Assembly: GCF_020379485.1 (NCBI RefSeq)
Contig: NC_063439.1
Coordinates: 9,402,466-9,466,465, forward strand
DNA: 64,000 nucleotides
Origin: Brassica napus
Lineage: Eukaryota > Streptophyta > Magnoliopsida > Brassicales > Brassicaceae
Reading direction: 5' to 3'
The stretch's first letter is position 1; each line of letters starts with the position of its first letter. Below are positions 7,866-59,800 of the stretch, one piece after another. Below the pieces are notes generated by a model. That model was given only the letters and a program-made list of their open reading frames with translations. It did not search any database and was not told where the DNA came from. The translations under genes and the position numbers were made by a program.

Positions 7866-7933
7866 TTAGTATTATGGGGAAAAAAAGAGAGATTATCAGA
7901 ATGGTCCAACATAGCTTCTTATTTTGCGCGAAT

Positions 7934-12436: not shown

Positions 12437-12740
12437 TTCAAAACAATCAATTTTAGAAATATTAACATAATAATTAAAAATTAGTAAGATTCCTAATTAA
12501 CCATAAAATATTCCTAATATATAGGAAGATATATATCGCTATTGTTTTGGTATATGATTAGATTTTGAAAAAAAAATATGTTCATATTCCCCAAACAAAG
12601 ATCAATCCTATGATCACTCTTAAAATTTTAAAAGATACTATCAGTTTTAGAAATCAACCATAATTTTTAATTTTATCAAATGTAACAATATGAAATTTTA
12701 CGATGTTGAAAATTCATGCATCACATTTTAGAATATCTAA

Positions 12741-14767
12741 TCTATTAAAATAGAGTCTTATTTTTTATCTACTAATATAAGTTGTGATTTAAAATTGGAC
12801 CATTTCTAGAGTGTTACAATAATATTACATAGACGATCATTTGGTACTTAATGATTAAACCAGAATATTAAATCAGACCACGATAAGGTGATACAACAAA
12901 ACCGATGTTGTAAGCTATAATTAATTTAAACCAACCCGTCGGTTATCTAATATTATAAGAACAATACAATTAATTACACAATCACACCCTGCGCTTGGAC
13001 AGCAGGATGATAGTGTAGGATAGTTTAGATGAACATGTTTTCTTGACTTCATTTCATTACTTGCACCATAACAAATTCTTCTGAGTTTGCTTCTGTTCAG
13101 ATCATTAACTGGAACATAACAAATTCATATAAATTCATATATTGTCCATTTTCAACATACTAAACAGCCAAAATTTGAAAGAGTTTCAACCTTCAATGTG
13201 ATATATGTACATTTGTATCTGTAATATTGCATACTACCCAAAATCACTTTCTTATCTTATAAACTTTCAGAAAACTTATCACTGGTTTCGAATTATGTAC
13301 ATTTATAAATAGTAGTTTTTAAAATAAATAGTTATATATTAATATATTAATATCTTATTATTATATATTTTTAATCATGATCTAGAAATATTCTAACAAT
13401 ATTAACAATATATTTGATCAATTTTACAATAACGTGTCTTCCAATCTAAATAACCTCTAACAACTTAAATTTTGTGTCGTAGTTTCCTGATATATTCCAT
13501 GCCAGAATATTCTAACCACAACAATAGATTTGCTCAAACCTACGTATCTTGAAAGGAAAAAATCGAACAAGTAACAATTTAATTCGGAGAACGGAGAAGA
13601 AAAAGAAAATCAAGTGGTTACAAAATTGAGGTTACACATTACAAGTAAAATATGCAGGCTTAATTTTTTTTTAAACTATAACTAGGGTCGCGCAGGTGTA
13701 TTTTATAAAAAAAAATATGATGCTATTTACTTTTCTGTCATTATCTAGGGTTGGAAAAAAAAAACTCAAATTCGAAGAATCGAACTGATCCCAATCCGAA
13801 TAAGTAGTTCCAAATCTGAACCGAAATTGATTAAATATCCCAGTTATTCAAAATTTTGGTATTTGAAGAATTGAACTCTAATCCGATCAGAACCGAAGTA
13901 TTTTGGGTATCCAAAATAGATTTATATACTTATATATATTAATAATTTTTAGATTTAATATATATAAAAACATCCATAATATATATGATACTTTTAAGTT
14001 CGCTTAAATACTTGAAAATATATATAAATAATCAAATGTAAATATCTAAAATAGTTAAAATATACTCAAAAATCCAAAAATACTTAAATAATTATTAATT
14101 CTATTTTCAAATATTTAAACCAAACTAATTTATATGTTAAGTTAGGTACTCTGACATATGTTATTCAAATTTATATGTAAAATATTATATTGTTTATATA
14201 TTTTTTAAATTAAAGCATATAATAAATTTCAAATTTTTTAAAATAATTTAAATTGGTTATCCAAATCCGAATCTAATTCTCAAATATCTGAACAGAACAC
14301 AAAATCCCAAACAGACCCGAAAACAAACTTGAACGTCCATCCCTTATCACTATTATATTTCATATATGTGTCATCATAGGTTACAAAATATGTGTTATCA
14401 TATAATTAATCATATTTTATATGTACCATCAAATAATTAATCTTATAATTAATAATATTTTATATGTACAATCATATAAATAATCACATATATTATATTT
14501 TTAAATTTCAATGTGAAATATAAAAACCATAGTTTAAGTTGGTGTTTGAAATTGGGTGTATTGTATTTTTCTTATATATATTGAAAACATTTTTATAATG
14601 GTTATTGGGAAATATGTTAGTAAAAATCAAATTTTGAATATATATATGAATAATTTTTTGATTTAAATCAATTTTAAATTTTTATTTTGATTTGAATATG
14701 TATATCAAGTAACAATTAGAAACATTTGTTCAAATAATTTCCGCGCACAGCGCGGATTAGTATCTAG
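12741..14767 (+). mobile_element. Non-autonomous Helitron, 2027 bp
   Basis: Starts TCTATTAAAATAGAGTC after A (12740). Ends with the hairpin CCGCGC-ACA-GCGCGG (about 14741-14755), then ATTAGTATCTAG (to 14767). The next base is the T of the TC that opens the following Helitron. The interior from about 13760 to 14700 is the reverse complement of the interior of the 6512-7865 element. The match includes the GGTTCGG-type motif cluster and the flanking stretch containing TTCAAACACCAACTTAAACTA-type sequence. No coding capacity seen. Confidence 0.78.
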
Positions 14768-16556
14768 TCAATACTATTAAAAGGGAATCAGTCATAAAAA
14801 ATCTACCTATAAAAGTTGTTTGGACTCTTTTATTAGACTAATAGTATTAAGTATTATGATCTACCTTATATTTACTAACTAACATAATATCTGACGTAAT
14901 CTACTTTCTTTAAACAATTTTAAGTATACTTTCATCTATTATATATTAAAGCATTTTAATAGATCAATTATATTGACGGTAACCATGTTTTAACCAACAT
15001 CTTTATGATAAGAATTGCCTTTTTCTTGAAAGCTCGCTCCAACATCTCTATTGCATATGTATTCCTCCTATTTTTTTAAATGTCACTGCATATGAACACG
15101 TATACTACTATACTAATTACAGAACTATCAAGATATATTTCACCATTCTATTAAATCATTTCTTTTAAATGATGCTTCTATTTCCGTGAAACCAACCATT
15201 GAGATTCGAAATATCTTTGTATTATGAATCTCTCTTGACTGATCGACATAACCAAATATTCTACATTAAAATATCTCATCAACAAACTAACAGACTAATA
15301 CTTCAAAACATATATGCACATCAGCACATAAGATATTCCTTTTAAATATACTCAAACCCAATAATCAAGCAACCTAAATTTTAACTATGTAGAATCAAAA
15401 CAACATATATTTTAATTAACAATTTATAATCTTCTCAATTACGGTTTAAACCTAGCTTTAGATTCTACGTAAAATATTACAAATAGGCCATTATAATTTT
15501 AAAGGATATAATTTTTAGCAATATAACTTTCATTGCTCTATTTATCAATTTTTTTTAAAATAAGATTTTTCTGGATTTTTATCGGTTAAACGATGTTGGT
15601 TCACGGGTTAATGACATGTTTTTACTTATATCAATTTTTTAATTAATAGGTTTTCATTAAATTTGAATTTTGTAGAAACATATAAATTGGGTTCTATGAA
15701 GAACATAAGCCAATCCAAATTATATACGGTCACCGGGTTTACCGGTTCGACCGTATGTCCCAATCGAATATAAAAACACTGCTTATATCTTAATTTATCT
15801 ATAAATTGCATATGTATCCCATATATAAGAGTTAAATAATTTGTAAAAATATAATTTTTTCTTTGTACCAATTAAATGTAGATGGACTATTACTCCCCAA
15901 TATTTGGTTTCGGTTCAGGTATTTTTGTTTTGGTGTTTTTGGTTTTATAAACGTAGGAACCGTTCATGTATTTATAAAATTATTTTTTCAACTTGGTTAT
16001 TTCGGTTTTTAGTTCAGTTCAGTAGTAAAGTTGGAACTGGCTAACATACAAAAACATTTGGATCCAATTATGTTCTGGCTCAATTCTTATTTTCCAGACA
16101 ATTACATATTTATAGATAAAAATATCAGATAATTTGGAGTTTTCAGTTTAAATATCAAATTACAGATAATTCAGATAATTTTTAATAGTTTGAATAAAAT
16201 ATTCAGTAATTGAGTGTTTTTTTGGTTAATTCGGTTTATAAATAATATTTAAGGATATTTAGTTATTTAGAAATTAGATATAAATATTTGTAAGTATATA
16301 ATTTCTATTTTAAAAATTTAGGTACTCATTTGATTTAGGTTTTTTAGTTTCAATTTTTTTTGGTTCTAGAAATATACTATTTACTCGGTTATCTATGAAA
16401 TTCAGTTCTATTCGATTTTTTTTTAGTTTGGTACGGTTTAATTCTCGGTTTTGGATATATGTGGCAAAACTTATACACTATATATAGATTTTTTAATAAG
16501 ATTTTTTTAAAATTTTGAAAAGAACCCGCGCTTCCGAAGCGCGGGTCAAAATCTAG
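14768..16556 (+). mobile_element. Non-autonomous Helitron, 1789 bp, abutting the previous one
   Basis: Opens TCAATACTATTAAAAGGG immediately after the CTAG of the preceding element. Closes with the hairpin ACCCGCGCTTC-CGAAGCGCGGGT (about 16523-16545) and CAAAATCTAG (to 16556), followed by T. The interior is AT-rich with scattered GGTTTCGGTTCAGG-type motifs. A short open stretch near 15626-15871 is not credible as a gene. Confidence 0.82.
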
Positions 16557-16559
16557 TTT

Positions 16560-17280
16560 TCTCTATTAAAAGAGAATTACCATTTTTATCTACCATAAAA
16601 AGTCATACTAGTCTTATTAGGTCCATTTCATTAATTACATTTATTTAATTATTTACATTAATCTATTAAATATATAAAGATATTAATAATAAATCAATTT
16701 TAACTGTAAATTTAAATTTTATTTTTAGTTAAAACAAAATGTTGAGAACAAATCTAACAAAATCTTTCTAAAAATTTAAAATATTTTATTTAAATTAATA
16801 CTATTGATTAATTTCGTAATTAATAATATATACTATTATACATTAATTTAAATAAGATTTTATTATAAAACAAAATAAAATAAAATTGTATGGTATTTTC
16901 AATTTTTATAATTATATTATATATTTTCTTTATTAAAAGAAATACCATAAAAAATTCATACTAGGTCTATTTCATCAATAACATATATTTGATTATTTAA
17001 GTTAATCTATTTAATATATAACATTTTGAAAAAAAATATTATAAATTATATAGATATTAATAAATAAATTTTAACTGTAAATTTAAATTTTATTTTTACT
17101 TATAACAAAATATATCTAACAAAATCTTGATAAAATTTTCTTTTTTTTTAAATTAATGCAGCGATTGATTTTATAATTAATAATATAGTATAATTATAAT
17201 GTATTTACTTATAATGTATTTACTTATAAAATCCCACAATATACTAAAATAAATAACATAGAAATATAAATTATGCTAAG
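16560..17280 (+). repeat. Two tandem copies of a Helitron-like 5' segment, about 365 bp each
   Basis: Copy 1 begins TCTCTATTAAAAGAGAATTACC at 16560. Copy 2 begins TTCTTTATTAAAAGAAATACC near 16925. Both continue with the same phrases: CATACTAG, TCCATTTCAT, GATATTAATAA, TTTTAACTGTAAATTT, and AACAAAAT plus CTAACAAAATCTT. The first copy follows the 3' end of the preceding Helitron after three T bases. No 3' hairpin follows either copy. The copies have diverged through several small indels. Confidence 0.62.
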
Positions 17281-17494
17281 AAAATATCAGTTCTATAGTA
17301 TAACTAAATAAAATTTTAAAATATATTTTTTTGAGTCTGTAAAAATTAGAAAAAAAAAATGAAGGAGATTCTCAATTTGTTTATTTTATACTATGAATTC
17401 ATTTTACCAAACTCAAAAATATATTAATATAAAATAACAATTAATAATAAAGTAAAATGTATAAAACAAATCATTATACATTAATAATATCGAA

Positions 17495-18321
17495 CTAGAT
17501 TTTGACCCGCGCTTAGAAAGCGCGGGTTTATTTTTGAAATTAAATAAATTCTTCTTATATAAGAGATAATGTATAGGTTTGAGTACATTTACCCGAGTAC
17601 ACTGAACCGTACCAAACTGAGAAAAAAATTCAAAATTAAGCTGAATTTCATAAATAATCGAGCATATAAAAAATATAAACCAGGACCAAATGAGTACTTA
17701 AATTTTTAAAAGGGCAAATCTCCAAAATAGCACATTTCTAAGTTTATATCACAAAAATAGCACTCAAAAACTAAAATGACCAAAATAGCATTTTATCTTT
17801 TGAAAAATTTAAATTTTTTTATTTTTCAAACTTTGAAATCTTATCCCCAAAACCTCACGTCTCAACTCTAAACCCTAAAACCTAAACTCTAAACCCTAAA
17901 CTCTAAATTATAAACCCTAAACCCCACCCCTTGAGTGCTATTTTTGTGACTTTTGGACTTGAGTGCTAGTTTGGGAACAAAAACTTGATTTAGTGTTATT
18001 TTGGTCTTTTTCTCTTTTTAAAATACAAATTATATACCTATTAAACATAACTACCATTAAAAGTTTATACTATTAATAGAATTATATGTGGTAATGATCA
18101 CATTTGAATAATCTATCACATATTCATATGGATTTATTGTTAGAGCAATTATATAATAGATTATGAGAAAATAATAAATGAATTCATTTAAATTATGTAA
18201 AGTATTTTTATAGTTAGAGAAATATAAGTTAAGACCAAATAAATACTTAAGTCTAATGAAATGGTCCAACAACCTTGTTTAAGTAGATTTTTTAGGAGTG
18301 ATTCCCTTTTAATAGTATAGA
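17495..18321 (-). mobile_element. Non-autonomous Helitron, 827 bp, with internal telomere-like repeat
   Basis: Opens CTAGATTTTG with the hairpin ACCCGCGCTT-AGA-AAGCGCGGGT and closes TTTTAATAGTATAGA, the reverse complement of a TC end. Flanking A (17494) and T (18322) give the AT target. Between about 17710 and 18015 it carries a separate repeat. That repeat has arms containing CAAAATAGCAC / GTGCTATTTT in opposite orientation and a core of degenerate AAACCCTAAA units. It is a Brassicaceae-type interspersed repeat nested in or captured by the Helitron. Confidence 0.83.
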
Positions 18322-35488: not shown

Positions 35489-38400
35489 TTACCGCATCAA
35501 AGCTACTGGTTTGATTAGCTCGTATATTGAAGCAGGTTCTTCACTCTCGCTGGAGATAGATTGCTCGGTGGCTTGATCATTGTTTTCACCGGCTTCTTCC
35601 TCAGTAGCCCCTAGGGATATAAACTCGAAGCCTTCTTTTCCAAAATCTTCACTCTCAGTGGGATGTCTATCCACTACCATTGGCTCAGACTCGGAAAAGA
35701 GTTTCTGAAGTGAGCCAAAGTAACGCCCACGGGCATTTTTCTCTAATGGTTCGCTTGGTCTTTTCCTCTTTCTTCCTTTGCCTTGGCTCTTGGGGTGGTG
35801 GAGCTTGCATTTCGATCCTTGAGGGCATGATCCAGTTGCTTCGAAATCTGGGCAGGTGTATGAATGCTTCTTCCGACACTGTTACCATTATGTAGAGACA
35901 ACAATCCGCAATCTTTAACTTCATCAAGTGTTTGCGAGTGAAACGAGAGGGATAAGTAAAATATGTGACATAAAGCCCATGTATGGATCTCTCTTTTCCT
36001 TATACTCCTTGAGGTACTAATCAACTTAATATGCAATTTAATTCCTCAAAGAATTATATTAGAAGGAGGATCGCTAAAAGATCACTAGTAATGCATAAGA
36101 AACGAGCATATGCATGTGAACCGTGGCAATGAATTATAAGTTGAAACCTTACCTCGTTTCCGTCTGAACAGTATCCCTTTAAAAACCCATCACATATAGC
36201 AGCACTCGGGTTGACATGCACATGCCTATATGGACATGCCTCATTGTTGCATAGGCCTGCATTGTAGGTATTAGTATTGTGTGTACCCGCGATGGGATCT
36301 TAATACAATTGGAAACTCTTACCTTGCAGAAAATAAGAGCAATCAGGCATCCTTTCTGGAATGACCTGTGGAAGAAATACGTCAAGCAGTTAAAGATTTC
36401 TGTGAAGCAAAAAATCTGCAGCAATGACTTCGTAGGACGACCTTGTGAGTCAATTTGCAATTATCATTCGCACACAATCCATTCAAAAACTTGGTGCAAA
36501 CTGCAATTTTCGAGGGGTCGTGAACATATGGACATTTCCCGTCATCTTTGTTGCATTTCCCGAATCTTGTGAAGAACTGGCAGTACTTCTTCTTCTTCTT
36601 AGCCAACCGCAACCGAACATTGTGCAGGCTCCATCTGACCTTCTCATTAGCCAACGCACGGGTTCGTTTCTTTGGATCTCTGACAAGCTGGTTACCATTT
36701 CCCACACGTACATATCTGCAAAATTGATTCAAATGTTAGATTGAGGCTCCAGAAAGATGAGTAAAATTATATTATATTTGAATCAAGAATAACATACTCT
36801 TCATGGCCTATCACCAATCTCTTTGGGATGAAAGGTCTTTTCGCGCCTTTCCCATTTTCAGTAGGTCCAGAGCACGGTGAATCAACATCTAACAAAGAAT
36901 CATTTCTTAGCTCAGCAGAGAGATACATTAGGTTAAGACTCTCGTGCAACTAATGAAAAACTAACAGTTCCAAGCCTAGAGAGTTCTCACAATCCGATCA
37001 AAACCTTGGTTGAGACTCATCAACCACCTAGAGGGAGTGAATAAGAGATAATACATGTGTGTATGATCGGATTATTCATATACTACAGAATAAGAAGCTC
37101 CAGATAACGGATCTTTGTCCCTGCTCGAGGTTCTGTTCTCTAAATCCTATTTTGATATTATCACTGCTCATCTACAAAGCGTTTATGAGTCTTAACTTTA
37201 GGATATCCTACCAGATATTCTCTGAAGAGTTCGCCTTGAAGGATCCATTTTATAGCGCAGAGAACCAAACCTGAAAATGCGCCCCCCTGAAGAACAGAAG
37301 TCGATAAGAAAAAAACCTTTGAGGTTTGCTGAAATAGAGGCTCAAGAAAATAAACCCAAGGTAAACTGACCAGGAGGCCTCCAAAATTATAGAATAATTC
37401 GTCCAAAATAACTGGCCATGCATATTTTTTTACCGTGAACCAACTTACGTGCCAGATGGTTTCTGCTCGTCTTCCTAGTACTACTTTGTCCAGAATGCTT
37501 TTCATTTTCTTTCTTTGAAAATGCAGCCACAGCCAAAGTGGCTTCCTGTACAAACAGAGGAAAAACAAAGTTGTATACACCACTTTTTCGATTGTGCTAA
37601 AGACACTTCAGTGAAGAAACTAACCTCATTAGCTTTTCTCGAGTCTCTCTCAATGGACTTGGACCATTTTAAATGCGACCCACCAATACTTAAGACCTTG
37701 GATTTTCTAAGTGAATACCCGTTAGTTGATCTTGTGTATACAGTATGTCTCTTCCTCATCGTTGACAACTTTTGGCTGAAGATCAGAACGCCCTGTCATC
37801 AAGTTTGCAAACACAAAAACGAGAGCGTCGCAGCTCAAGGAATATTGAGTACATTAGAATGTAGATACCTGATATTGGAGAAAGAACCATTTCGCAAAGC
37901 GGAGACTGAATTCATTAATCGTCTCCAGTATGTCACTCTTTTCCAAGGAACAAGTTGTGGCAAGATCCTCCGATAGCGCATGTGACTTGAGGGCAAGTCT
38001 GATTGTTGATCATTTTGCGTCCAAACCAGAGAAAATTTTGACCGCTTATATGGTCTCGTGACAGCTACAAAAAAAAAGAAAAAAGAGAGGACCAGTTACT
38101 TCATTTCTCACATCTAGTTATGGGTGCAAAACCGCAAAAACATATGTAAGTATATGGAAAACGGAATCTGATACTTGATAGATGTTCAAAGAGCGCTAAA
38201 AGATATTTATTTCTTTACATACCAGCGTCGGAGAATGCTGAGCTAGATGATCTTTCCGACACCATGGTTGCAGATGCTCGTGAATCTAATGCATCATCAG
38301 GTGAGTGATTGACACGACTCTCGGAAGTCCTAACTAGCTGATTTTTATTTCGCTTGAAGTAGCCATCAGAGGTAGAAAACTGGCTCCTACTTTTACTATG

Positions 38401-40262
38401 AATATCTGAAGCTGCAACCAACTGATTTGCCTTCCTCTTGACATATACGGTTCTCTTCAAATCTGAAGAATCCAAGTTAGGAGGAATTTTCTTCTGCTGG
38501 CAATTTGAAGCATAATCTGTCTGAATTGGTATGTCAGATGTCTTAGATGTATCTCCACCAGAGTGCGGAACACTAGCTTCTCCAGATGTAGCAGAATCCA
38601 TGATAGACTCAGGTAAACCAGTGGTGGGGTGATCCATGCTGTAAGATAATGCACATTTTCCTGAAGGAGCATCAATGGCATTTGATACTTTGGAGGTGCT
38701 GCTGTCAGAGGGAGGCTTTGACTGCTTCTCAAGAGTGGGTATTTCTCCTGCTTTAACAAGAAAAGAATCGTCACCTACAGCAACCTTACTGGCAGATCCT
38801 GTGCTTTTGTTTTCTATACGGTTTAATGAACCACGCTGTGGGATTGAACTTTGCCTAGCTACAGACTGTGCAACTTCGGGAGCCACAACAGTTCCAGTAG
38901 AAACAGATGAGATGCCCATTGTCGACGTAGTGCCAGTAGTATGTTGTTTTGGCTGCGTGGAAGCAACTGAAAACACATCTCCGAAAATTGAGTCAGAGGG
39001 AAAACCGTTTCCTGATGCAGCCAGTTCCTTGGCTACCAATTGATTGGATGGAGCATCTAAAGGAGCAGATGCAGGCACTGGTACTTGCGGTCTGGTTGTT
39101 GTAGAGCTTATTACTGCAGGTGTCATATGAGGCTGTGGTATATTGTTGGCAATTGAGTTAGGTGCTGTCAAACCATATCCACGTTGACTCGAAGGAATTT
39201 GTAAATTCACTTGCCCAGAGGGCCCAACACTTCTGCCGCTGATCCAATTAGATGGCACAGGTTGGTTTGCGGTACGAGGCGCAATAGTCCCTCCAGGTGG
39301 CATACCCTGGCTTTGAAAATTTTGCGGTGGTTGAGATGGAGGTGGCCCAGTAAATTGGTTCTGCTGGCCGGGGACTACTTGCTGATTGCTAGTGCTTACG
39401 TTTCCACCCATTTGAGGTCCTCTCATACCAGCGGCCACTGATGTAACCCCCGGAGTTTGTGCAACAGGTCCCCTGGGCTGTGGAGAAGGTGTTGCAGCAA
39501 GATTTATTTTGGGAGCAGGGATATTGGCTGAAGCAGGACTATAGATTGCAGCCTTGACAATCTCAGGAGTCAATTCCCGTCTACTTTGTGCGACAGTCAC
39601 CAACTTTAGAGCATTGTAAAACTCCGCTCGACCAAGGTAACCAGCCTTTTTTGCATCTGCGTAGGACCATACCTACAAGGATGAAAAAAGAAGAAGCTAC
39701 ACCATTAACAATCCAAAGATTAGTTGCTCAGAAACGTGTGAAATTATTTAAATATGCAGTATTCCCTCATTGCACGCGAAGCTCTATGCATATGCATGTC
39801 ACAGACAAGTAGATACATCTAAATTGCTTCTGTATCATTAAAAATGCTATATGAACATATCCACTAGACCACAATGCATTATCTAATAGCAGCAGTATAG
39901 ATTACAATTACATAAACTGGAGTACGAGCTTCAGAATGAAGAGAGAGGTCCCTCAACCACCCAGAAGAGAACAAATTTGATAAAATAACGTCACACTTCT
40001 ACCAACGATCACACAGATCAAAGATCCAATCCAAAACCTATAGGAACTACAAGTATTCTCCACCGTTTCATAACAATCAAAAGAAACGAAATAGATGCAG
40101 ATAAGGGGAAAGAACCTGAGCAAGGACGGGTTTAGGCAAATTGGAGCCTTGGAAGAAACCGACAGCCTCAGCTCCACTGATACGGCCATCTCCATCCAAA
40201 TCTGCTCTCCTGAAATACGTATCGAACAGATCCTGTCCCCCCGTCGGCCTCGGCGCCGCCAT
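35489..40262 (-). CDS. Chimeric gene: EH domain (EH2/Pan1 5' part) fused to SOP1-like CCCH zinc-finger half
   Basis: Ten exons: 40262-40116, 39672-38223, 38064-37869, 37775-37625, 37545-37449, 36888-36798, 36715-36442, 36365-36323, 36256-36153, 35878-35489. Phases agree across all nine GT-AG introns, giving 931 aa. Residues 1 to about 331 match the AtEH2/Pan1-like gene at 53852: EH domain with loop DLDGDGRISGAE, then the P/Q/S-rich linker ending SIPQRGSLN. From NRIENKSTGS on, the protein is the C-terminal half of a SOP1-type nuclear protein (Arabidopsis SOP1, At1g21580, acts with the nuclear exosome). About residues 707-830 hold five CCCH fingers, for example CQFFTRFGKCNKDDGKCPYVH and CPDFEATGSCPQGSKCKLH. 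Linker spacing is mostly CX7-8CX4-6CX3H. The join is at 38825-38826, in exon 2. Intron 1 is shared with the EH gene, so the copy was made from DNA. Whether it is expressed is unknown. The C-terminal half might also be compared with C3H7 (At1g21570). Confidence 0.82.
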
Positions 40263-40337
40263 TAGAGGATGATCCGAAATCTAGCAGCGAAGGCAGTCTC
40301 CAGAAGCTTTCGCCATAAAAAAAAGCACAGAAGAACG
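38825..40337 (-). repeat. Inverted duplicate of the EH2 gene 5' end, about 1.5 kb
   Basis: This segment is the reverse complement of 53775-55290, including about 75 bp of 5' UTR, exon 1, intron 1 and the first 0.85 kb of exon 2. The copies differ by scattered substitutions (for example AAGMRGP here against TAAMRGP there; NSIANNIPQ against NSTANNIPK). Homology stops abruptly at both ends. The left edge is within exon 2 at the sequence TTCATT; the right edge follows GTTCTTCTGTGC in the leader. Confidence 0.93.
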
Positions 40338-40547
40338 TGTAAAACTGATGTTTTATGGCAAATCTATCTATTTGAGACACAACTAATACGAAATCACACA
40401 ACAATTTGATGTTTTGCATGAAATTAGCCGATGGCCGCCATGGAAATAGCTCTTCAGAGTCGAAACCCTAAAAAAAAAATCTGGGGAAGATAATGAGAAT
40501 TACGACTATGCCGCTAATTAAAAAAATTAAATAAAAAAAGAACCCAA

Positions 40548-40622
40548 AATGCGCTTGGATAGCGTCGAACCCGGCGACTGGTGATCAAATTCAACAACTC
40601 TTACCACTAGGCCACTGGAAAT
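40548..40622 (-). mobile_element. tRNA-derived SINE head
   Basis: On the minus strand GTGGCCTAGTGGTAAGAG (A-box like, about 40597-40614) is followed about 28 bp later by GGGTTCGACGCT (B-box like, 40561-40572). This is the internal pol III promoter of a tRNA-related SINE. The piece does not form a tRNA cloverleaf. The 3' end runs into a T-rich stretch; its TSD was not resolved. Confidence 0.55.
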
Positions 40623-40659
40623 TAATGGTAACTGTCCAACATTGTAGTTTTGAACATGG

Positions 40660-40737
40660 GACTCAGGTAAACCAGTAGTGAAGTAATTCATGCTGTAAGA
40701 TAACGCACATTTTCCTGAAAAAGCATCAATGGCTTTC
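40660..40737 (-). repeat. Short third copy of the SOP1-like breakpoint sequence
   Basis: It matches 40885-40975 (shared GTAGTTTTGAACATGG, then GACTCAGGTAAACCAGT) and 38608-38690. It reads as the peptide region ALSYSMDHPTTGLPES with changes. Homology ends at AATGGCTTTCCGG. Confidence 0.75.
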
Positions 40738-41659
40738 CGGATCCAACATTATATAATCTATTACAAAACGTATCCTAAAAACTGAAAATAATACAAAAAC
40801 TAATATCTGCTTAATTTTCGGTTAATTTCTGATTTTTTGCTAACTCGCTAGGTCCAGACCAGCCGTCCGATTAGCGCCTAGCGTAGTTTTGAACATGGAC
40901 TCAGGTAAACCAGTGGTGGGGTGATCCATGCTGTAAGATAATGCACATTTTCTTGAAGGAGCATCAATGGCTTTTGATACTTTGGAGGTGCTGCTGTCAG
41001 AGGGAAGCTTTGACTGCTTCTCAAAAGTGGGTATTTCTCCTACTTTAACAAAAAAAGATGCGTTACCTACAGCAACCTTACTGGCAGATCCTGTGCTTTT
41101 GTTTTCTATACGGTTTAACTTGATAGCAGATAAAGGCAGTCCAAGGGTAACACCAGGAGAACCATAGGGTTTTCAAAGAAGGTTATTCCCTTTACGTACA
41201 TAACTATTACAAGATTGGACAGTCACTATGGGGAAATTCTGTTCTGTAGAAAAAGTAGACGACAAAGGCAGTAACAAAAGAAGAGGCAGCATGACTAGGC
41301 TTTCGATGCCAATTGTGATGCTTATTGGGAGGGTTAGCATTTTTCTTAGTGTCAGACACCAAAGGCAGGAACGGGGATAACTTTTCTGAGTAAAGTAACT
41401 GGAATTATTTTTCTTCTTTTCTAATTCATACCTAGAGCTCAAAGATGTCTTATTTTGGGGATTCCGATCTGGCACATATTTTACATGATCGTTAACATGT
41501 GTCAATGCAAATTTAACATCTGCACGTGATGACAGATGAACTCCTGAATTACCAAGAATTTCAGTTCCAACAACTTTCCCATCAGCTGACAATGCTTCAC
41601 CATCAAATATATCATTCTTAATAATGTTCCGTGAGTATTTCTCTAGACCGCCAACATCA

Positions 41660-42140
41660 GAATTTACATCAATTTCCAGAGTTCTGTACTTAGTGGTTCC
41701 ACCGGATGGCTTTGCTTTCTCATTATAGTTGTTAGAGTCATCAACCATAGAAGCAACATGAGTTTCACTCTGTATCGGTCTGTACAGATTTGGAGAGTTG
41801 GATAGAGAATCAAATGGAACTTAATCCCCACAAAAAGCAACAATATCAGCTCCTTGAGTTCTGTACTCATTGGTACCACCATAATGCTTGGATTTTTGTT
41901 TAACGTTGTAAGTTTCATCAACTTTAGCAGCAACGTGCGTTTCACTCAGTATCTGCCCGAAGCTCTGCCCGATGAGCTGGATAAAGAATTACATGAAAAC
42001 ACTGAATCCCCAGTAACAGCAACAATATCAGTTCCCAGAGTTTTGCACTTCAAAGTTCCACCGGACGGGTTTGTTTTCTCTTCTTGAATATCTATAGCAA
42101 CATTCTCAGCACAATTATTTTTCTCATGCTTGATACCAAT
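41660..42140 (-). repeat. Three degenerate protein repeats in the SOP1-like pseudogene
   Basis: Units of roughly 50-60 codons share the pattern SE(T/S)(H/Q)-x-KVD-x-Y(N)-x-K-x-(G)GT-x-YRTLG-x-DIV. Examples are SETHVAAKVDETYN near 41945 and SETHVASMVDDSNNYN near 41770, with an older unit starting SESQIGIKHEKNN near 42150. The unit lies across frameshifts and stops. Confidence 0.6.
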
Positions 42141-42684
42141 TTGAGATTCACTTTAGTTAGTTTGAACATATGTTTTGTTTTGCATCTGCTCATTCATTGC
42201 CATCAAGAAAGAAAAATGGCATGGACTAACAGAATTATCAGATACTAAGCAAGCACTAACCCTTGAAAGATCCACCTCCAGATTTTTCTTCACAGCGAAA
42301 TTCCAGACAGAACCAAATGCACCAGATGATCTACATCCACCTTGATCTTCAGGCAAGAACTTGCCTACAGGCGAACAGGGTTGCCTTTCGTGGGGACCAG
42401 AGTCGGCTTTAGTAACAGTTTCATTAGCAAACATGCCATTAATTCCAACTGCAGGGTTTGTTTCAATTACCAATGCAGGCGAGCTAGGTAAATTACCACA
42501 AAAGTGAAAGCATTTTGGCTAACGTCTCGCTGAACAAGCCCCTCGCTTGAACCATAAGTAATATCTTTGTTTAGAGAAACATTTGGCTCTGGTAAACAAG
42601 TTTTCAAGTTTCTATTATTTGAACCACTTAACTTATCTACGGAAGGAATTTCGGAAGGTTGATTAGATGTTAAACCCAGGTCTT

Positions 42685-43110
42685 CAACAGGCGCAAGTCT
42701 CTCCGCACTTAAACTTTCCATACCCTCTTCAGATGGTACTGCAATATCTAAATCTGATTCATAACTACGTGAATAGCCATCAGTTCTCTCAACAGGCAAC
42801 ACAACCAATGATCCCTTCACATCAACCTTTGAATGAGATGAAGAAGTACCTTTTACACAGGCCTGTATACCTTCATCACTCTCACTCTCGAGATTATCAA
42901 CAGGCGCAAGTCTCTCCGCACTTAAACTTTCCATACCCTCCTCAGATGGTACTGCAATATCTAAATCTGATTCATAACTACGTGAATAGCCATCAGTTCT
43001 CTCAACAGGCAACACAACCAATGATCCCTTCACATCAACCTTTGAATGAGATGAAGAAGTACCTTTTACACAGGTCTGTATACCTTCATCACTCTCACTC
43101 TCGAGATTAT
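42685..43110 (-). repeat. 213-bp in-frame tandem duplication in the pseudogene
   Basis: Units at 42685-42897 and 42898-43110 are nearly identical. Each encodes 71 codons that begin DNLESESDEGIQ and end AERLAPV. The only clear amino-acid difference is T/A at GIQ(T/A)CVKG. A length divisible by three and near identity mean the duplication is recent relative to the frameshifts or was frame-preserving. Confidence 0.9.
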
Positions 43111-45536
43111 CAGCCATTTCTGCAACACTTCTGAGAGGTTTAGTTTCCATGGATTCTTTTATGCTACCATTCTCAACTGATGGGTTGGCCGTGTCTTCAC
43201 AATGAGTAAAATTTTTACTTTCATTCATATCAGGTGAGTCGACTATGGTACTGGGATATGTACCAATGGTAAAACTGTGAGCATTAGCAAGATCCCCTGA
43301 AATATTATTATTTGCATTAGCAAGCTCCATTGAAACACTAGGAATTTCCAGAGATGCAGAGAAAATTAGACCCCTACAACAGTCATTTTCAGGAGACAAT
43401 GAATTTACATTCTTATTGATCCCATTGCTGCCATCTTCAATACCACATGTATCTAACTTCGTCGCCTGGTGGCCAGGGTCTTCTTTATTAAAATAGATGG
43501 ATGCGTCTCGAGATGACTTTTCCAAAACTTTGTCCACATAATCTAAAGATCCAACTGATGAGCCAATAAATATCCTTTTCTTCGGATCATGTATTTAACT
43601 CCTCCATTGGTGTATTCCTTGATGGTGAACAATCCATAGCCACATCTTCACAATGATGAGACTCAACACTATACATGGACTTACGAGCAAAACGAACTAC
43701 TGCTTCAGAATACTCAGAAAGATCAGCCGCTGTTGACACTGATAAAAGTAATTTAGTAGGAGACCTATTGGTACTCTCCTTTACAATGTCTTCCATCTCC
43801 ATGACTTTCGGCGGAAGAGCTTCGCCAGCATTACAACCAGTTCTGTTCAGCACATCTTGAGAGTTCAGTATACTTTTGCCCCTCTCAATAACATCTTCGA
43901 TAATGGAGCAAACCCCCATATTGCTATCATGTTCAACATCAGAGTCATCCTTGGCCTCTTTCAAAGCCTCACAAACACTAGAGTTCTTTTCTGCAGCATC
44001 TACAGTAATAATAACTTCACGAGTTAAAGCTTCAGGACCTTCATCAGTGATTTTAACTTCGCAATCATTAACGACACCGTCAACAAAGCTGACATTGTTC
44101 ATACCCCACTGGAAGACTGAGTTGAGTGATTACCAGGTTTCTTTTCAATTTCAGATGAAATACTTTGCTTTTTAGATGGTCTGGATCCTTCAGAAACCGA
44201 TGCCTCATCTGAAAATTGTGTTCTCAACTTTCCATTTCCTTCAGTTACAGAAGGGTTCTCACTTTTATCAGGCACCAATGCTCTTCTAGCTTTAAAAGAT
44301 CGAGGTGTCACAGACCGGCTTGGGTGGATGCCTGCACCGGTAGGTGATGCTATGGGCTTAGCTACCGGAAGATTCAATTCAAATGAAACATCAAGATCCA
44401 CTGGAGTTCTCTCCCTTTGCTTCTCCACCAATCCACGATCAGAATGACCCAAATGTTCTTTACCCCTAAACAAGTTCGAGTTAAACCTTTTCCCATTATA
44501 GTTACTATGATTCCGACCATTCTCTCTACCCTTCTGATGGTTTCTTGTTGTTTCACGCCTAAGCAGAGCACTCTTCTTCAGCATTTGTTTCCTGGGAGTT
44601 CGATTCAGTTCGCTGCTCTCTTCTCTCCTTCCACGATCAAAATATTGTTCAGTCTCGGAATGATAGTAGTCATCCTTTTTCCGGGGATAGAGAATCTTCC
44701 CTTCATTCCACCTCTGGTTTCTAGTCCCTTCATGACTTGCATAAGGCCTACCCATATCACGACTCACTGTAACACCATATAAATCAGTACCATAACCAAC
44801 ACGTGAAGCTAGATTCCTATTACATTCACCTAGACCCCTAAAGCACCTATCAGACTTTGTTTTTAACTGACCACGGTCTTGATAACTCCCTTCTATTCTA
44901 GATTCTTTTCTCACATATCCAGTATTACGAAACTCATCTCTAGACCTAAAACTACCATCTAAACCACGGTTGATGCTAACACCAGATGAATCCCTCGACG
45001 AGCGGCTGTAGTCATACTGATAGTCATGGCTCGGACTCGGATCCAATCGTCTTCCACTAGTATACATTCGCCCCGGACCAGCGTCTGTCCATGAATCAAC
45101 TCGTTTATCCTTGTAACCAGCCCAGGGAGACTGAGGAGACATCTCGAGATTCAGTGAATGGGATAGTTGAAGATGAAGGTTGTGAAGCTCTTTGTGACTC
45201 ATAGCTAACTTGCTGAGGGATGTATGGTTAATGCTGTTGCGGCGGTAGCGGCAGCGGATGATGTTGATGAGACGGTGGCGGATGCTGAGGATAGTACGAA
45301 GACGACTGATTAACCGTCGGATTGGGTGGAAAATATTGGCGATGAGAGTAGTGGTGGTAATCCTTACGTTGCCCACCGTTATGAGTTGATGGAACATAGA
45401 AATTAGGGCTATCGGGATGAGATTGGCGAGGAGGCGGCAGCAGCGGCAGAAGGAGAGGAGCAGGAGGAGGATGATGAGGAGAGTAAGGAGAATTCCATTG
45501 GTCGTAACTCTGATTGTAATGAAATGAATCCATTGC

Positions 45537-53077: not shown

Positions 53078-53851
53078 GGGAAGTGGATAAAGCTCTCTGA
53101 AAGAGCGTTGTAAATTGTGGATTATATATTTCGATAAATATTTAATTCCACGGTAAGAAATTCCAGTATTTTAAGAACCAGACCGGACCGGTCAATTAAA
53201 CCGGTCAAACCTTATTCATTTTCTATCTGTTGTGAATTGTGTTAAAAATCAGATTTAAATTAAACCGTTAAAACCGGTTTAAAACTAGTCAAACTCACCA
53301 AAACTGCTGGTTCAAAATTCGACATTTTTTTCGTTTTATTTACAAAAGACTAAAAAAAAATTAAAATATGGTTGATCATTAACCCAATTTTACCATACCG
53401 AACCAAGATCTGGACCGGTTTTGAAAATTTTGTCCGTATTATTATTAGCTGTATCCGTATTATTATTATTTGCATCTCGAGGCTGTTATACGATCTTTGT
53501 TGCCACATAACTTTCCCAAAATCTGCTCGTCCATCGCGCTGTACCGGTATCCATCTCAAATCCCGGATTGTTTCTCTGTCGGCGAATCATCACCGACATC
53601 CGTTACCTCTCTCTCTCCTTCTCCTCGCCGTCGCTCTCTCTTCACCTTCACCGATCCCATCTCGCCTTCGCTTTCAATCTCGACTCCCTGCGACGTTGGT
53701 GCTCTCCCTCTCCTACCGATCTACGATTGCGATCGGTTAGCCTTACGAATTAGGGTTTTTCCACGATTGGATCGCGTTCTTCTGTGCTTTTTTTTTAATG
53801 GCGAAAGCTTCTGGAGACTGTCTTCGCTGCTAGATTTCGGATCATCCTCAA
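53078..53851. promoter_or_regulatory. Bidirectional promoter region between PTAC6 and EH2
   Basis: A compact head-to-head spacer. The EH2 side has a CT-rich leader (53600-53750), typical of plant 5' UTRs. The part from 53775 on is duplicated in front of the chimeric gene at 40.3 kb; the rest is not. Confidence 0.55.
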
Positions 53852-56800
53852 ATGGCGGCGCCGAGACCGACGGGGGGCCAGGATCTGTTCGATACGTATT
53901 TCAGGAGAGCAGATTTGGATGGAGATGGCCGTATCAGTGGAGCTGAGGCTGTCGGTTTCTTCCAAGGCTCCAATTTGCCTAAACCCGTCCTTGCTCAGGT
54001 TCTTTCCCCTTATCTTCATCTATTTTCCTTCTTTTGATTGTTATGAAACGATGGAGAATACTTGTAGTTCCTATAGGTTTTGGATTGGATCTTTGATCTG
54101 TGTGATCGTTGGTAGAAGTGTGACGTTAATTTATCAAATTTGTTCTCTTCTGGGTGGTTGAGGGACCTCTCTCTTCATTCTGAAGCTCGTAGTCCAGTTT
54201 ATGTATTTGTAATCTATACTGTTACTATTAGATAAGGCATTGTGGTCTAGTGGATATGTTCATATAGCATATTGAACGATACAGAAGCAATTTAGATGTA
54301 TCTACTTGTCTGTGACATGCATATGCATAGAGCTTCGCGTGCAATAAGGGAATACTGCATATTTAAATAATTTCACACGTTTCTGAGCAACTAATCTTTG
54401 GATTGTTAATGGTGTAGCTTCTTCTTTTTTCATCCTTGTAGGTATGGTCCTACGCAAATGCAAAAAAGGCTGGTTACCTCGGTCGAGCGGAGTTTTACAA
54501 TGCTCTAAAGTTGGTGACTGTCGCACAAAGTAGACGGGAATTGACTCCTGAGATTGTCAAGGCTGCAATCTATAGTCCTGCTTCAGCCAATATCCCTGCT
54601 CCCAAAATAAATCTTGCTGCAACACCTTCTCCACAGCCCAGGGGACCTGTTGCACAAACTCCGGGAGTTACATCAGTGACAGCTGCTATGAGAGGACCTC
54701 AAATGGGTGGAAACGTGAGCACTAGTAATCAGCAAGTTGTCCCCGGCCAGCAGAACCAATTTACTGGGCCACCTCCATCTCAACCACCGCAAAATTTTCA
54801 AAGCCAGGGTATGCCACCTGGAGGGACTATTGCGCCTCGTACCGCAAACCAACCTGTGCCATCTAATTGGATCAGCGGCAGAAGTGTTGGGCCCTCTGTG
54901 CAAGTGAATTCACAAATTCCTTCGAGTCAAAGTGGATATGGTTTGACAGCACCTAACTCAACTGCTAACAATATACCAAAGCCGCATATGACACCTGCAG
55001 TAATAAGCTCTACAACAGCCAGACCGCAAGTACCAGTGCCTGCATCGGCTCCTTTAGATGCTCCATCCAATCAATTGGTAGCCAAGGAACTGGCTGCATC
55101 AGGAAACGGTTTTCCCTCTGACTCAATTTTCGGAGATGTGTTTTCAGTTGCTTCCACGCAGCCAAAACAACATACTACTGGAACTCCGTCAACAATGGGC
55201 ATCTCATCTGTTTCTACTGGAACTGTTGTGGCTCCCGAAGTTGCACAGTCTGTAGCTAGGCAAAGTTCCATCCCACAGCGTGGTTCATTGAACCAGCATC
55301 CTGTTGGTGTTCAGAATCAGCTTACTGGAAATTTAGGGCAGTCATTTGTTCCCGCCGGTGCAGCTTCTGGTACAACTGGCTCTACTGTTGGAGTTGGGAT
55401 TTCAGCTTCCAGTCAGTTGACCCAGCGTCAGTCTCAGCCACCCCAGCCCCAACCGCAGCCCCAACCGCAGCCCCAACCTCGCCACCAACCCCATCCCCAG
55501 CCCCAACCTCAGCATTATCCCCGGCCCCAACCCCACCACCAACCCCAGCCCCGACCCCAACACCAACCCCACTACCAGCCCCAAGCCCCTTGGCCAAAAA
55601 TGACTCCAGCTGATGTCCAGAAATATACCAAGGTTTTTGTGCAAGTTGACACAGATAGGGACGGAAAGATCACCGGGCACCAGGCTCGGAATCTGTTCTT
55701 AAGTTGGAAGCTCCCGCGAGGTAGGCTACATTTACTTTTTTGCTGCTTCATCCGTTGAGCACTAGTTTAGTTTCAGTTTGAGCTTGTGTTTTATAATGGT
55801 AAACATGCATGATAATTAAGTGGCACTTCTCTAGTTATGTATATTTGTTTGTATAGCACTGATCAACTACCCTACCATTGTAGGTGCATCTTTAGTTTTC
55901 TTGTTTTGTTCCATGTTTTGGCTATAAGTGGATAATTATATTTATGTTGTCTCGAGCAGAAATTGTTATACTTTACCTGGGGAGTATAGACCGTTTTATG
56001 TGTGTTTTCAATGTTGTTTCCTGGTATTACAGAGGCTTTGAAGCAGGTATGGGATTTATCCGATCAAGATAATGATAGCATGCTCTCCTTGAGGGAGTTC
56101 TGTATTGCTGTTTACCTAATGGAGCGTTACAGAGAAGGCCGACCTCTTCCCCCAGTGTTCCCAAGCACTATAATATCTAGTGAGAGCATGTTTACCTCTC
56201 CTGGTCAATCTGTGGCACCACATGGCAATGCATCCTGGGGACATCCACATGGTATTGCATCACACCAACCTTTTTCTGTATTACTTCCATTATTATTCTG
56301 AAGTAGGCAGATTCATTCTTGGACCAAATATTGTAGGTCAAGTTCATGGGGGCTCGAGGCCACCAGCAATTCCCAAAGGAAAGCCTCCAAGGCCGGTTCC
56401 TCTCTCTCCTAGTGATGGATTGGTCCAGCCCACTCAGCCAAAGCGTAAAATGCCTGAGTTGGAAAAACATCTGGTGGATCAACTTAGCAAAGAGGAACAA
56501 GATGCACTCAACTCGAAATTTGAAGAAGCTACTGCTGTTGATAAAAAGGCACTCTCTGATTTCTCTCTGATTTTAATGTGCTAATGTGGTGAATTTATTT
56601 GGTTAGCGTGAGACACTTTTCTTCATATGGGAAGGTCACTAATATGAATAATTGTAGATTTTGGTAGTCATATTCCAGATTATAAGTTTCCAAGTCCTTT
56701 ATGAATGGAATAAACAAACAGCCTCTGAGAACTATGCATAGTTCTTATTTTACTTCTAAACCTGTTTGAAGCTAATTACTACAATTTGTGTGCTTTTCTT

Positions 56801-59800
56801 GCATACGTGATCAGTTGTCCATGTAGTCTTTATTGACGTAACCTATAATTTCGTTTGACTGCCGTTTCTTTTTTTTTTCTCAACTTCTTGTATTTTGCTA
56901 TTCAGGTGGATGAGCTTGAAAAAGAAATAGCTGATTCCAAGCAGAAAATTGAGTTCTTCCATGCTAAGATGCAGGAACTTGTAAGTATAACTTCTCATTA
57001 TTATTACCAACTATCAGTTTCTATAACCTTCTCCATTTGGTCCTTGGGTGACAGGTTTTATACAAGAGCAGATGTGACAACCGGTACAATGAGATTACGG
57101 AGAGAGTCTCGGGTGATAAACGTGAGGTATAGAGTTTCTGTTGCACCGTACTTCTATAATTGTATCGGAGATCCAATTTGATTACCTAACAAAAACTACC
57201 TGTAAACCAGCTTGAATCTCTAGCAAAAAAATATGAGGAGAAATACAAGAAGTCTGGCAATGTAGGCTCTAAATTGACTATTGAAGAGGCCACATTCCGA
57301 GATATACAGGTAGTTTAGAAGTATCATCTCAGGAGCATGGTGTACTTTGAATTGTCTGTAGCTGGATGTCGCCTTCAAAAATATGATAAACTTCCCTTTT
57401 TGAAATGCAGGAGAAGAAAATGGAACTGTACCAGGCTATAGTCAAATTTGAAGAAGGCAAGCTTGATGACAATATTGTTAAGGTAAACCCAACGTGCTAT
57501 CTAGCTGGTTTAATGTGATTTGGTAATTCTATTTTACTGAATGTTGTCTTGTAGGAGCGTACTGAACACATCCAATCGGGACTTGAGGAACTGATTAAAA
57601 ATTTGAATGAGCGCTGCAAGCAATATGGAGTACGTGGCAAACCCACTTCTCTGGTGGAGCTTCCTTTTGGTATAAGATTTACCCCTTCTCCTTTCAAGTT
57701 CATCTTTAGTATTATATTTTCTTGATCAGTGGTGAAAGGTTACCATTCTGGCTGTAAATTTAAAATTTAGTAATTTTATCATTCAAGAATTTTATTAAAC
57801 GTTGATGCTTTTGTACAACACGAAACTCGGTATATTTGGCCCTTTATGTATTGTTGCCAGAAAGACTTCTATCTATACAACTTTATACCGGTTGTATCTT
57901 CCTTTCGATATATTCATGGGATTTCCTCACGTTTTACAGGTTGGCAGCCTGGAATCCAAGAAGGTGCTGCTGATTGGGATGAAGACTGGGATAAGCTAGA
58001 GGAGGAAGGTGAGATTATGGAGGAAGCATGGTTTTAGATGTTTAAACAAAATTCTTTTTTTTTTCTTTATAATTTTGGTTTTTGCTTTTGGGCTATCTGT
58101 CTTCCAAAACAGGGTATGCATTTTGAAGTTGAACCCTTGAACTTTGCCTACTAATTTTTCTCTAATTCCAGGGTTTACCTTCGTCAAGGAGCTTACACTT
58201 GATGTCCAGAATGTCATTGCCCCACCGAAGGAAAAATCATCTGCTTGGAAGAAGGAACTTACTGTCTCTTCAAATGAAAGTGCAGACGTTTCATCCTCAG
58301 ATGTCGTGTCTAAAACAGAGAAAAAGCCAAGCAGTGGTGAAGAGGCATCTGAACATTCAGATGGTAAAACAGATAGAAACGGATCTCTGGATGATTCTAA
58401 TGTTAGAGAGAGTATTGAAGCTGACGGTTCACCCCGTACCAAAGATTCGAAGAGGTATGCTTTTTGTTTTAGACCGTGTGTGTTATGGATTGCATCGTTC
58501 TTAACTGTGGATTTTATGTGCTTTCATAAAATGAGGAAAATAGAGTGTTATATGTTCTTACACATCTCGGGTGACTAACATTTGTCTTCATTTTACTCAA
58601 ATTTTTTTATCAGTGAAAATGGCCATGATGATGGTGAATCTACTGCTTCTGCTGGCAAAACTGTAAACTATGACTCTCACGATGAGACAGATTCAGTTTC
58701 AAGCTTCAACCCTGACAACGGAAAGGTATAATGTGGTCACGTGCTCTATGTTATCATTTTGGCATTAATATTTGATGCTTTGTAATCTTAATTTAACTAT
58801 TTTGAATGTTGTTTGTTTACGCAGGACAAGGATCATGAGAAGCGTGATAATGACTTTGGATTTGGGTTCGGATTCGATGACTTCAGCATCAAGCCTATAA
58901 AAACTGGCTCCACCCTATCAAATGACTTCCTCCCTCCTAAACTATCTATATTTTCTGATTCTGTCCCAAGCCCCCCGGCTAATGCAAACGACGGTTTCAC
59001 TGCAAAACCTTCTTTGTTCGATGGTTCTGTCCCGAGCACTCCAGCAACAACCACTGCCTCTTACTCAGGCAATAAATCATACTTTGATGAGTCTGTTCCA
59101 AGCACCCCTGCTTACCCAGGAAACTTATTCTCCGAGAAGAAAACATTCTTCGACGACTCGGTTCCAAGCACTCCTGCTTATCCTGGAAGCTCGTTTCCTG
59201 AAAAGAAATCATTCTTTGATGACTCAGTTCCAAGCACCCCTGCTTATCCTGGAAGCGTGTTTCCTGAAAAGAAATCATTCTTCGACGACTCTGTCCCAAG
59301 CACTCCTGCTTATAGCACGTCTGATTTTGGTGGGAAACCGTTTGCGTCAGAGACACCTCGTTCAGACAGCTTGTTCCCAGGAAGAAGTCCCTTCATGTTC
59401 GACTCTGTCCCAAGCACACCCGCAGCACACGACGACTTCTCTTCCAACAGCTTCTCCCGCTTCGATTCATTCAACAGCAATAAAGACAACGACGCGTTCT
59501 CTCTATCCCGCTCAGACTCGATGCGCAGCACAAGCGAGCCAGACCCATTCGCATCCAGGTTTGATTCTTTCAATTATCAGAGATATGATTCCTTCAATGC
59601 ACAAAGCTACGACAACAACAACGCATCCGAGACACCTAAAGCCTCATTGTCGAGATTCGACTCGATTGGAAGCACCAGAGACTCTGATTACAATCACGGG
59701 TTTGGGTTCGATGACCATGACCCGTTCGGTTCTACGGGGCCGTTCAAAACAACTACAACAACAGCTGAGACACCTCGGAGCAATGATCATTGGAATGCCT

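Follow-up and report, generated by a model that had tools for sequence, protein, structure and literature searches.

Members of the AtEH/Pan1 family combine two EH domains with a coiled coil and an acidic motif, as described in the available part of PMC8144573, and AtEH2/Pan1 is a subunit of the TPLATE complex. SOP1 (At1g21580) is a cofactor in a subset of nuclear exosome functions, and the Arabidopsis protein is nuclear, being found in nucleoplasmic speckles with HEN2 (excerpts of PMC4735120). In the window, i.e. the whole 64,000-nucleotide stretch of Brassica napus DNA analyzed here, parts of these two genes are joined in a single open frame. The chimera shares with AtEH2/Pan1 the first EH domain, the linker, intron 1 and the tryptophan of the NPF pocket, but the copied piece ends inside EH2 exon 2, so that the second EH domain, the coiled coil and the acidic motif are absent. 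With SOP1 it shares the five C-terminal CCCH fingers and the conserved region preceding them, and the exon structure of this half is that of the SOP1 homoeologue; unlike SOP1, it is devoid of the 1387-residue N-terminal part and has an EH domain and linker at its start.

Two further systems offer comparisons. The Oryza fusion genes, as presented in part of PMC9199173, are likewise two-gene chimeras with parental copies still in place and signs of purifying selection, whereas here a local inverted copy was placed into the other parent, and the chimeric product is a predicted one. Filler DNA at plant double-strand breaks (available sections of PMC5023962) resembles our insert in being templated and joined through short homologies; here the target is also duplicated and, unlike in those cases, a coding chimera arose by chance from the insertion. 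We found no report in the literature of an EH domain fused to CCCH zinc fingers in Brassica, and the accessible main text of the B. rapa and B. napus CCCH family papers (PMC6307296, PMC8609832) contains no mention of EF-hand, AtC3H7 or At1g21570.

Structure of the locus

The EH2-SOP1 fusion is real. The 5' end of EH2 is present as an inverted copy (38820-40337, minus strand) with 97.1% identity over 1520 columns to 53775-55294, bearing out the inverted 1.5-kb copy proposed in the first-pass annotation. The junction with the SOP1 3' half lies where it had been placed, at 38825-38826, with both parental flanks readable: EH2 ...GGTTCATT passes into SOP1 TTAAACCG..., the TT being common to both. 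The SOP1 3' half is in frame with the EH2 piece, the frame is open and all introns are GT-AG. That the frame runs without a stop was thus correctly seen, but the count of ten exons and 931 aa was not, as a 75-bp exon (37286-37212) had been overlooked; this exon also occurs in the related protein models P0001-P0003, and the homoeologue's intronless 1522-base contig P0122 contains it too. The corrected gene model, with 11 exons and 1005 aa, supersedes a ten-exon, 980-aa model devoid of this exon, with which the protein database search and the Pfam profile scan were run. The partner had been termed SOP1-like, but it proved to be SOP1 (At1g21580) itself. The features of the locus are as follows:

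40116..40262, minus strand: exon 1, with the EH2 start codon (ATG at 40262) and the beginning of the EH domain; GT donor; copied from EH2 exon 1
38826..39672, minus strand: EH2-derived part of exon 2, rest of the EH domain and linker; 38825-38826 common to both parents
38223..38825, minus strand: SOP1-derived part of exon 2, linker fused in frame; homoeologue C379
37869..38064, minus strand: exon 3, SOP1 conserved region
37625..37775, minus strand: exon 4
37449..37545, minus strand: exon 5
37212..37286, minus strand: exon 6 (75 bp), also in P0001-P0003 and P0122
36798..36888, minus strand: exon 7
36442..36715, minus strand: exon 8, CCCH fingers 1 and 2
36323..36365, minus strand: exon 9, start of finger 3
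36153..36256, minus strand: exon 10, remainder of finger 3 and most of finger 4
35489..35878, minus strand: exon 11, last part of finger 4, then finger 5, a basic stretch and the stop codon
38820..40337, minus strand: entire copied EH2 segment, from a piece of the 5' leader through exon 1 and intron 1 into exon 2
53775..55294, plus strand: parental EH2 segment
38603..38826, unstranded: 224-bp SOP1 duplication, copy retained in the fusion
40895..41118, unstranded: 224-bp SOP1 duplication, copy staying with the cut-off 5' half
40333..40642, unstranded: fragment X of a dispersed repeat, adjoining the EH2 piece; at least 39 matching stretches, the window's own among them
40742..40895, unstranded: fragment Y of a dispersed repeat, adjoining X at C96:6438200-6438654
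41119..45533, minus strand: cut-off SOP1 5' half, a pseudogene with 7 frameshifts and 5 stops

Both parents are identifiable, EH2 within the window and SOP1 through its copies on C379, C475 and C197, the latter two being further open copies. At the homoeologous locus on C379, which presumably represents the C subgenome, EH2 and SOP1 are separate, and SOP1 is contiguous and intact, with a single uninterrupted 1387-codon open frame in its 5' part and intact 3' exons.

Occurrence of the fusion in other genomes

Assemblies can be misled by nearly identical inverted repeats, which is the point in favor of an assembly or annotation artefact. However, among the 120 proteins listed out of 695 matches, three clusters from B. 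rapa and B. napus contain the same fusion: P0001 from B. rapa trilocularis, P0002 from B. rapa (UniProt M4DN42) and P0003 from B. napus. The search for the same junction in related genomes, which had been suggested as a check, thus recovered it. P0001 has no substitutions relative to the window in the aligned columns; what sets it apart is 17 gap columns, an extra residue and a model extended 5'. P0002 and P0003 have a gap of 18 residues relative to the window, which preserves the frame at the level of the protein alignment. The annotated P0003 model is devoid of part of the EH core, including Trp51 (W51), and has C379-type residues. These models represent two distinct fused haplotypes. Since other B. 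rapa and B. napus genomes are annotated with this junction as well, and the window contains no N, we rejected the artefact explanation as highly improbable.

Origin of the insert

The EH2 insert is flanked on both sides by the 224-bp SOP1 duplications, and includes a fragment of a dispersed repeat. This fragment (X) has at least 39 matching stretches, counting the window's own; both X and Y derive from a single dispersed repeat, being contiguous at C96:6438200-6438654, and are split here by a 92-93-bp local duplication (40644-40736 / 40883-40974). The idea that X was the promoter of a third gene or a tRNA-derived SINE was dropped, X and Y being parts of one repeat; an Rfam search of 40300-40950 gave 4 matches, all under their gathering scores.

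Templated fragments, short junction homology and a target duplication are all present at the insert, and its structure fits templated double-strand-break repair as the presumed pathway. After the separation of the Brassica A and C genomes, the SOP1 gene on chromosome A06 would have suffered a break in its first exon, repaired with filler consisting of 1.5 kb copied from the EH2 5' end, ~13.5 kb away, and the dispersed-repeat fragment; 224 bp of SOP1 now stand duplicated at the two flanks. By chance, the EH2 piece came to lie in frame with the SOP1 3' half, giving a 1005-aa chimera comprising the first EH domain of EH2, the linker, the SOP1 conserved region and the five CCCH fingers. The first-pass annotation had further suggested that the fused half might simply have gained a promoter and a start. 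The start codon did come with the copy, which also brought in part of the 5' leader, the EH domain and intron 1. Upstream of the ATG, however, the copy extends for just ~75 bp before it meets the dispersed repeat, and capture of the EH2 promoter is therefore unsupported.

Features of the predicted protein

Profile scans of the 980-aa model recovered one EH domain (Pfam PF12763, 38.3 bits, cutoff 22) and, over the whole protein, zf-CCCH (24.5 bits, cutoff 20.5), with zf-CCCH_12 falling under its cutoff (24.7 bits against 27). In the PDB, the EH domain best matches the first EH domain of AtEH1/Pan1 (6yeu and 6yig, which share one sequence), and the tryptophan of its NPF pocket is kept, W51 aligning with the W of 6yeu. 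As had been noted earlier, the five CCCH fingers are intact, all five motifs being found at residues 781-904. The SOP1-derived half also contains basic stretches at residues 775 and 912, which we take to resemble nuclear-localization signals. These stretches, and the nuclear location of Arabidopsis SOP1, have to be weighed against the earlier suggestion that the fingers could be tethered to endocytic partners. An AlphaFold model of P0002, computed from an alignment of 30 of the 120 listed proteins with the finger part of P0002 left out, had a mean pLDDT of 40, with no 10-residue blocks attaining 70 outside the EH domain and the region around 721-740.

Constraint on the fused and cut-off halves

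Over its 4161 coding nucleotides, the cut-off SOP1 5' half has accumulated 7 frameshifts and 5 in-frame stops, while its C379 counterpart is uninterrupted. Thus, 12 lesions fall in the 4161 nt of this half and 0 in the fused frame of 3015 nt (P 0.0014, taking the lengths into account). The earlier proposal of a lesion-ridden discarded half, beside a fused half that was kept open, agrees with these counts. As there is no significant A-branch versus C-branch difference in N/S for the 5' half (Fisher P 0.36), its decay rests on the lesions; and since constraint on this half is loose on the C branch, too (dN/dS 0.69), we did not use the dN/dS of the 5' versus 3' halves alone. What the suggested dN/dS analysis does show is constraint on the fused SOP1 half. 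The paired 224-bp copies show 2 changes in the fused copy and 8 in the dead one (one-sided P 0.055), too few to be used alone.

In the SOP1 3' half, dN/dS between A and C379 is 0.23 over 674 codons, and equals 0.19 on both the A branch (16 N/24 S) and the C branch (13 N/19 S), with 11.5 N/4.5 S unpolarized. Had constraint ended at the fusion, 16 N or fewer of 40 changes would be expected with P ~4e-5 at the estimated date, 7e-4 if all unpolarized changes are placed on A, and 0.007 or, with unpolarized changes on A, 0.07 if the post-fusion share is assumed to be 0.3. Between A and C379, the introns of this half have 36 indels in 1313 bp as against one 3-bp coding indel, a comparison that includes pre-fusion time. 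Between the window and P0002, 1 of 474 residues differs in conserved regions as against 22 of 513 elsewhere (P 6e-6, the regions having been picked after the differences were seen). The zinc-finger exons, with 7 N/9 S on the A branch versus 2 N/10 S on the C branch, give a hint of relaxation. Judging from these substitution patterns, the SOP1 half of the fusion is under purifying selection.

These observations bear on whether the locus is a neutral relic, a young pseudogene making no product, whose frame is open by luck. The probability that the frame stayed open by chance since the fusion is highest at the lowest indel rate tried, with 0.06 for the central date and 0.2 for the youngest one considered, and SOP1 is open on C379, C475 and C197 as well, all of which such a relic would accommodate. 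However, the equal and low dN/dS on the two branches, the avoidance of conserved regions by changes in the fused haplotypes and the 12 lesions in the adjoining cut-off half make it improbable.

For the EH half, the evidence of selection is weak: the fused branch has 3 N/5 S (P 0.028) and 0 of 9 haplotype changes fall inside the EH domain (P 0.03), values that are not conclusive. The annotated P0003 haplotype has an incomplete EH core, and gene conversion with the parental EH2 could also keep this part tidy. Constraint on the SOP1 half could, moreover, stem from a shorter product that does not include the EH piece. In the corresponding alternative, the 3' half is expressed alone from an internal start or promoter, as the former At1g21570/AtC3H7 unit, with the EH2 piece as an untranslated passenger. 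This would explain why constraint is concentrated in residues 533-905, is in keeping with a copy that shows no evident EH2 promoter, and has parallels in short C-terminal models of other plants, found in a search restricted by design to short proteins. Nevertheless, the EH piece and SOP1 linker (~1.6 kb) are also lesion-free, the EH domain has 0 changes between the window and P0002, and the P0002/P0003 gap preserves the frame at the protein level; the At1g21570 and SOP1 units have also been re-annotated as a single large protein (in the portion of PMC4735120 available). We consider this alternative rather unlikely, though one to be taken seriously.

Expression and possible function

None of the matches in three protein searches was a junction-spanning transcript, and the sole near-identical transcript-like contig, P0122, is that of the C379 homoeologue (422/423). 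A 532-aa junction query (E<=1e-80) gave 4 matches with no fusion among them, P0022, P0033 and P0121 covering only the EH part and P0004 only the SOP1 part. The transcription, translation, nuclear location and function of the chimera are putative.

On balance, we favor the view that the locus is a young EH2-SOP1 chimera made by break repair, and probably encodes a putative short, EH-tagged SOP1 whose SOP1 half is constrained. Translated from the EH2 start codon, it would act as a short SOP1, binding RNA in the nucleus as a cofactor of exosome-linked surveillance, with the EH tag substituting for the fast-evolving SOP1 N-terminus and its binding being tolerated or mildly used. In N. benthamiana, a triple EH1.1-GFP of AtEH1/Pan1 marks the nuclear envelope, and the double-NPF protein NUP98A was named by the authors as a possible EH1.1 partner (both from the available part of PMC8144573). 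By analogy, the EH domain of the chimera might be functional and redirect SOP1-type RNA-decay fingers to nuclear NPF- or phosphatidic-acid-bearing sites, a speculative and quite improbable extension which, if true, would mean nuclear-pore tethering of RNA surveillance via a part borrowed from the endocytic machinery.

The locus presents a gene birth by repair that is unusually legible: the EH2 parent has persisted, as have the homoeologous locus in unaltered form, the duplicated target and the discarded SOP1 half, and together they serve as internal controls for reading selection on the new gene. Were it expressed, the EH-CCCH protein would test how much of SOP1 nuclear RNA decay needs.

Structure and identity of the fused gene

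The gene EH2, of the AtEH/Pan1 type, is represented twice in the window, as its 5' end has been copied in inverted orientation over 1.5 kb (38820-40337 versus 53775-55294, 97.1% identity). On the minus strand, this copy meets the 3' half of the CCCH zinc-finger RNA-decay gene SOP1 at 38825-38826, where both parents have a TT inside a longer imperfect match. The in-frame junction proposed in the first-pass annotation is borne out, with the frame open across 11 exons with GT-AG introns and encoding a 1005-residue protein. The ten exons originally counted had overlooked a 75-bp exon (37286-37212), which is found in the annotated fusion proteins of B. rapa trilocularis (P0001), B. rapa M4DN42 (P0002) and B. 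napus (P0003), and also in P0122, an intronless homoeologue contig of 1522 bases. All five CCCH motifs are intact, as had been claimed, as is the EH tryptophan, and the PDB match of the EH segment is the first EH domain of AtEH1/Pan1 (E 1.8e-42). Intron 2 (38065-38222) is shorter by well over 100 bp than in the three other SOP1 copies, with its splice sites kept.

The contig that holds the window measures 28.9 Mb, in a genome of 997 Mb, and the identity of EH2 residues 1-340 to BnaA06g15340D (340/340) places the window on B. napus chromosome A06. The neighbouring genes include:

47.4-47.7 kb, kinase domain
from 61.0 kb, NAD-kinase-type gene (PF22741)

These match the Arabidopsis At1g21580-At1g21640 gene order. 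The zinc-finger parent, at first termed SOP1-like, is SOP1 itself, given that its relatives P0005 and P0006 take their names from At1g21580 and that it has five C-terminal fingers. SOP1 is At1g21580, earlier annotated as At1g21570/AtC3H7 plus At1g21580, and is described with five C-terminal fingers (PMC4735120). Downstream of the SOP1 locus is a B3-domain open frame (PF02362, 31024-31413). Many direct and inverted repeats, possibly tandem gene copies, occupy 6814-17668 (for example, 7933-9233 versus 11130-12436, 89%), and EH2 contains 66-bp tandem repeats (59005-59313) encoding VPSTPAYPG-type units.

Origin and age of the insert

At C379, the homoeologous locus and probably part of the C subgenome, EH2 and SOP1 are arranged as in the window, without the insert. 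Relative to C379, 224 bp of SOP1 are doubled (38603-38826 and 40895-41118), flanking an insert that also holds:

40333-40642, dispersed-repeat fragment X, beside the EH2 piece
40742-40895, dispersed-repeat fragment Y

X and Y are parts of one dispersed repeat, adjoining on contig C96 (C96:6438200-6438654) and split in the window by a local duplication of 92-93 bp; in an alignment of nine copies, those elsewhere extend past the X fragment. Because the pieces are templated, the junction homology short and the target duplicated, the insert could have arisen through repair of a staggered break in SOP1 with filler DNA, such as that reported after breaks in PMC5023962.

Across 435 sites of intron 1, private changes number 7 in the fused copy, 7 in A06 EH2 and 18 in C379, and coding dS is 0.058 between the fused copy and EH2, 0.065 between the fused copy and C379 and 0.082 between EH2 and C379. 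Judged from these patterns, the fusion is younger than the A/C split; its age would be very roughly 0.6 of the A/C distance (introns 0.56, dS 0.7), a figure that gene conversion could blur. The search in related Brassica genomes proposed earlier recovered the fusion in models P0001-P0003, in two haplotypes: one shared by the window and P0001, whose aligned columns show no substitutions, and one represented by P0002/P0003. In a by-eye reading of the alignment, a 5-base deletion near 41270 and a stop near 41175 are seemingly absent from the P0003 model, and both therefore look younger than the haplotype split.

Selection on the fused gene

The cut-off 5' half of SOP1 is indeed full of lesions, its 4161 nt carrying 7 frameshifts as well as 5 stops, whereas the 3' half has none, consistent with the earlier proposal that the fused half was kept open while its former partner decayed. 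The suggested dN/dS comparison separates the halves (0.23 for the 3' half; 0.81 for the 5' half versus C379), but within the 5' half the branches on the window (A) and C379 (C) sides do not differ significantly (0.95 and 0.69; Fisher P 0.36). The 5' half also contains a 213-bp tandem duplication (42684-43109, 99% identical) absent in the homoeologue.

In the 3' half, nonsynonymous/synonymous changes are 16/24 on the A branch and 13/19 on the C branch, with 11.5 and 4.5 unpolarised. The counts reject a scenario in which this half ceased to be constrained once the fusion had formed (P about 4e-5; 7e-4 with every unpolarised change put on A); with an assumed post-fusion share of 0.3, P is only 0.007, or 0.07 with unpolarised changes on A. 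Of the 23 changes that distinguish P0002 from the window, 1 lies inside the 474 conserved residues (P 6e-6, the regions having been picked after viewing the change list), the SOP1 part alone giving 1/14 (P 2e-4) and the EH part 0/9 (P 0.03). As a paired control, the doubled 224 bp show 2 changes in the fused copy versus 8 in the dead copy (one-sided P 0.055). Two observations count against the fused gene being kept: the zinc-finger exons have 7 nonsynonymous and 9 synonymous changes on the A branch versus 2 and 10 on the C branch, and in the P0003 model 16 EH-core residues are missing and adjacent residues are replaced, among them W51, the tryptophan of the NPF pocket. Compared with 38827-40262, the EH part of P0003 is a mixture of A06-type and C379-type residues; gene conversion, a deletion allele or a model error are possible explanations.

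Expression and possible function

No fused transcript was found in protein database searches at the level of 90% clusters, within which A06 proteins could be hidden, so that this result is not evidence of absence; the near-identical transcript-like contig, P0122, derives from C379 (422/423). The copied EH2 piece extends upstream from the ATG by about 75 bp and therefore brings no clear EH2 promoter, which leaves the suggested gain of a promoter unsupported.

In the SOP1 half that was kept, the fingers are of the RNA-binding type, their closest solved relatives in sequence being CPSF4, and basic stretches occur at residues 775 and 912. SOP1 is reported in nuclear speckles with HEN2 (PMC4735120), and the simplest reading of the fusion product is a putative short SOP1 carrying an EH tag. 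Because the first EH domain of AtEH1/Pan1 is reported to bind a double NPF motif via its tryptophan and to label the nuclear envelope when expressed as a triple GFP fusion (PMC8144573), EH-dependent relocation of the product is possible by analogy.

The fusion is already in protein databases, without a name. A full-text literature search found no paper joining EH domain, CCCH zinc finger, fusion and Brassica, and a term search of the main text of two Brassica CCCH family papers (PMC6307296, PMC8609832) found no mention of it. Gene fusions are frequent in plants, with an estimate for Oryza of 63 arising and 16 fixed per species per million years (PMC9199173), and set beside these the EH2-SOP1 fusion is one more case of this frequent process.
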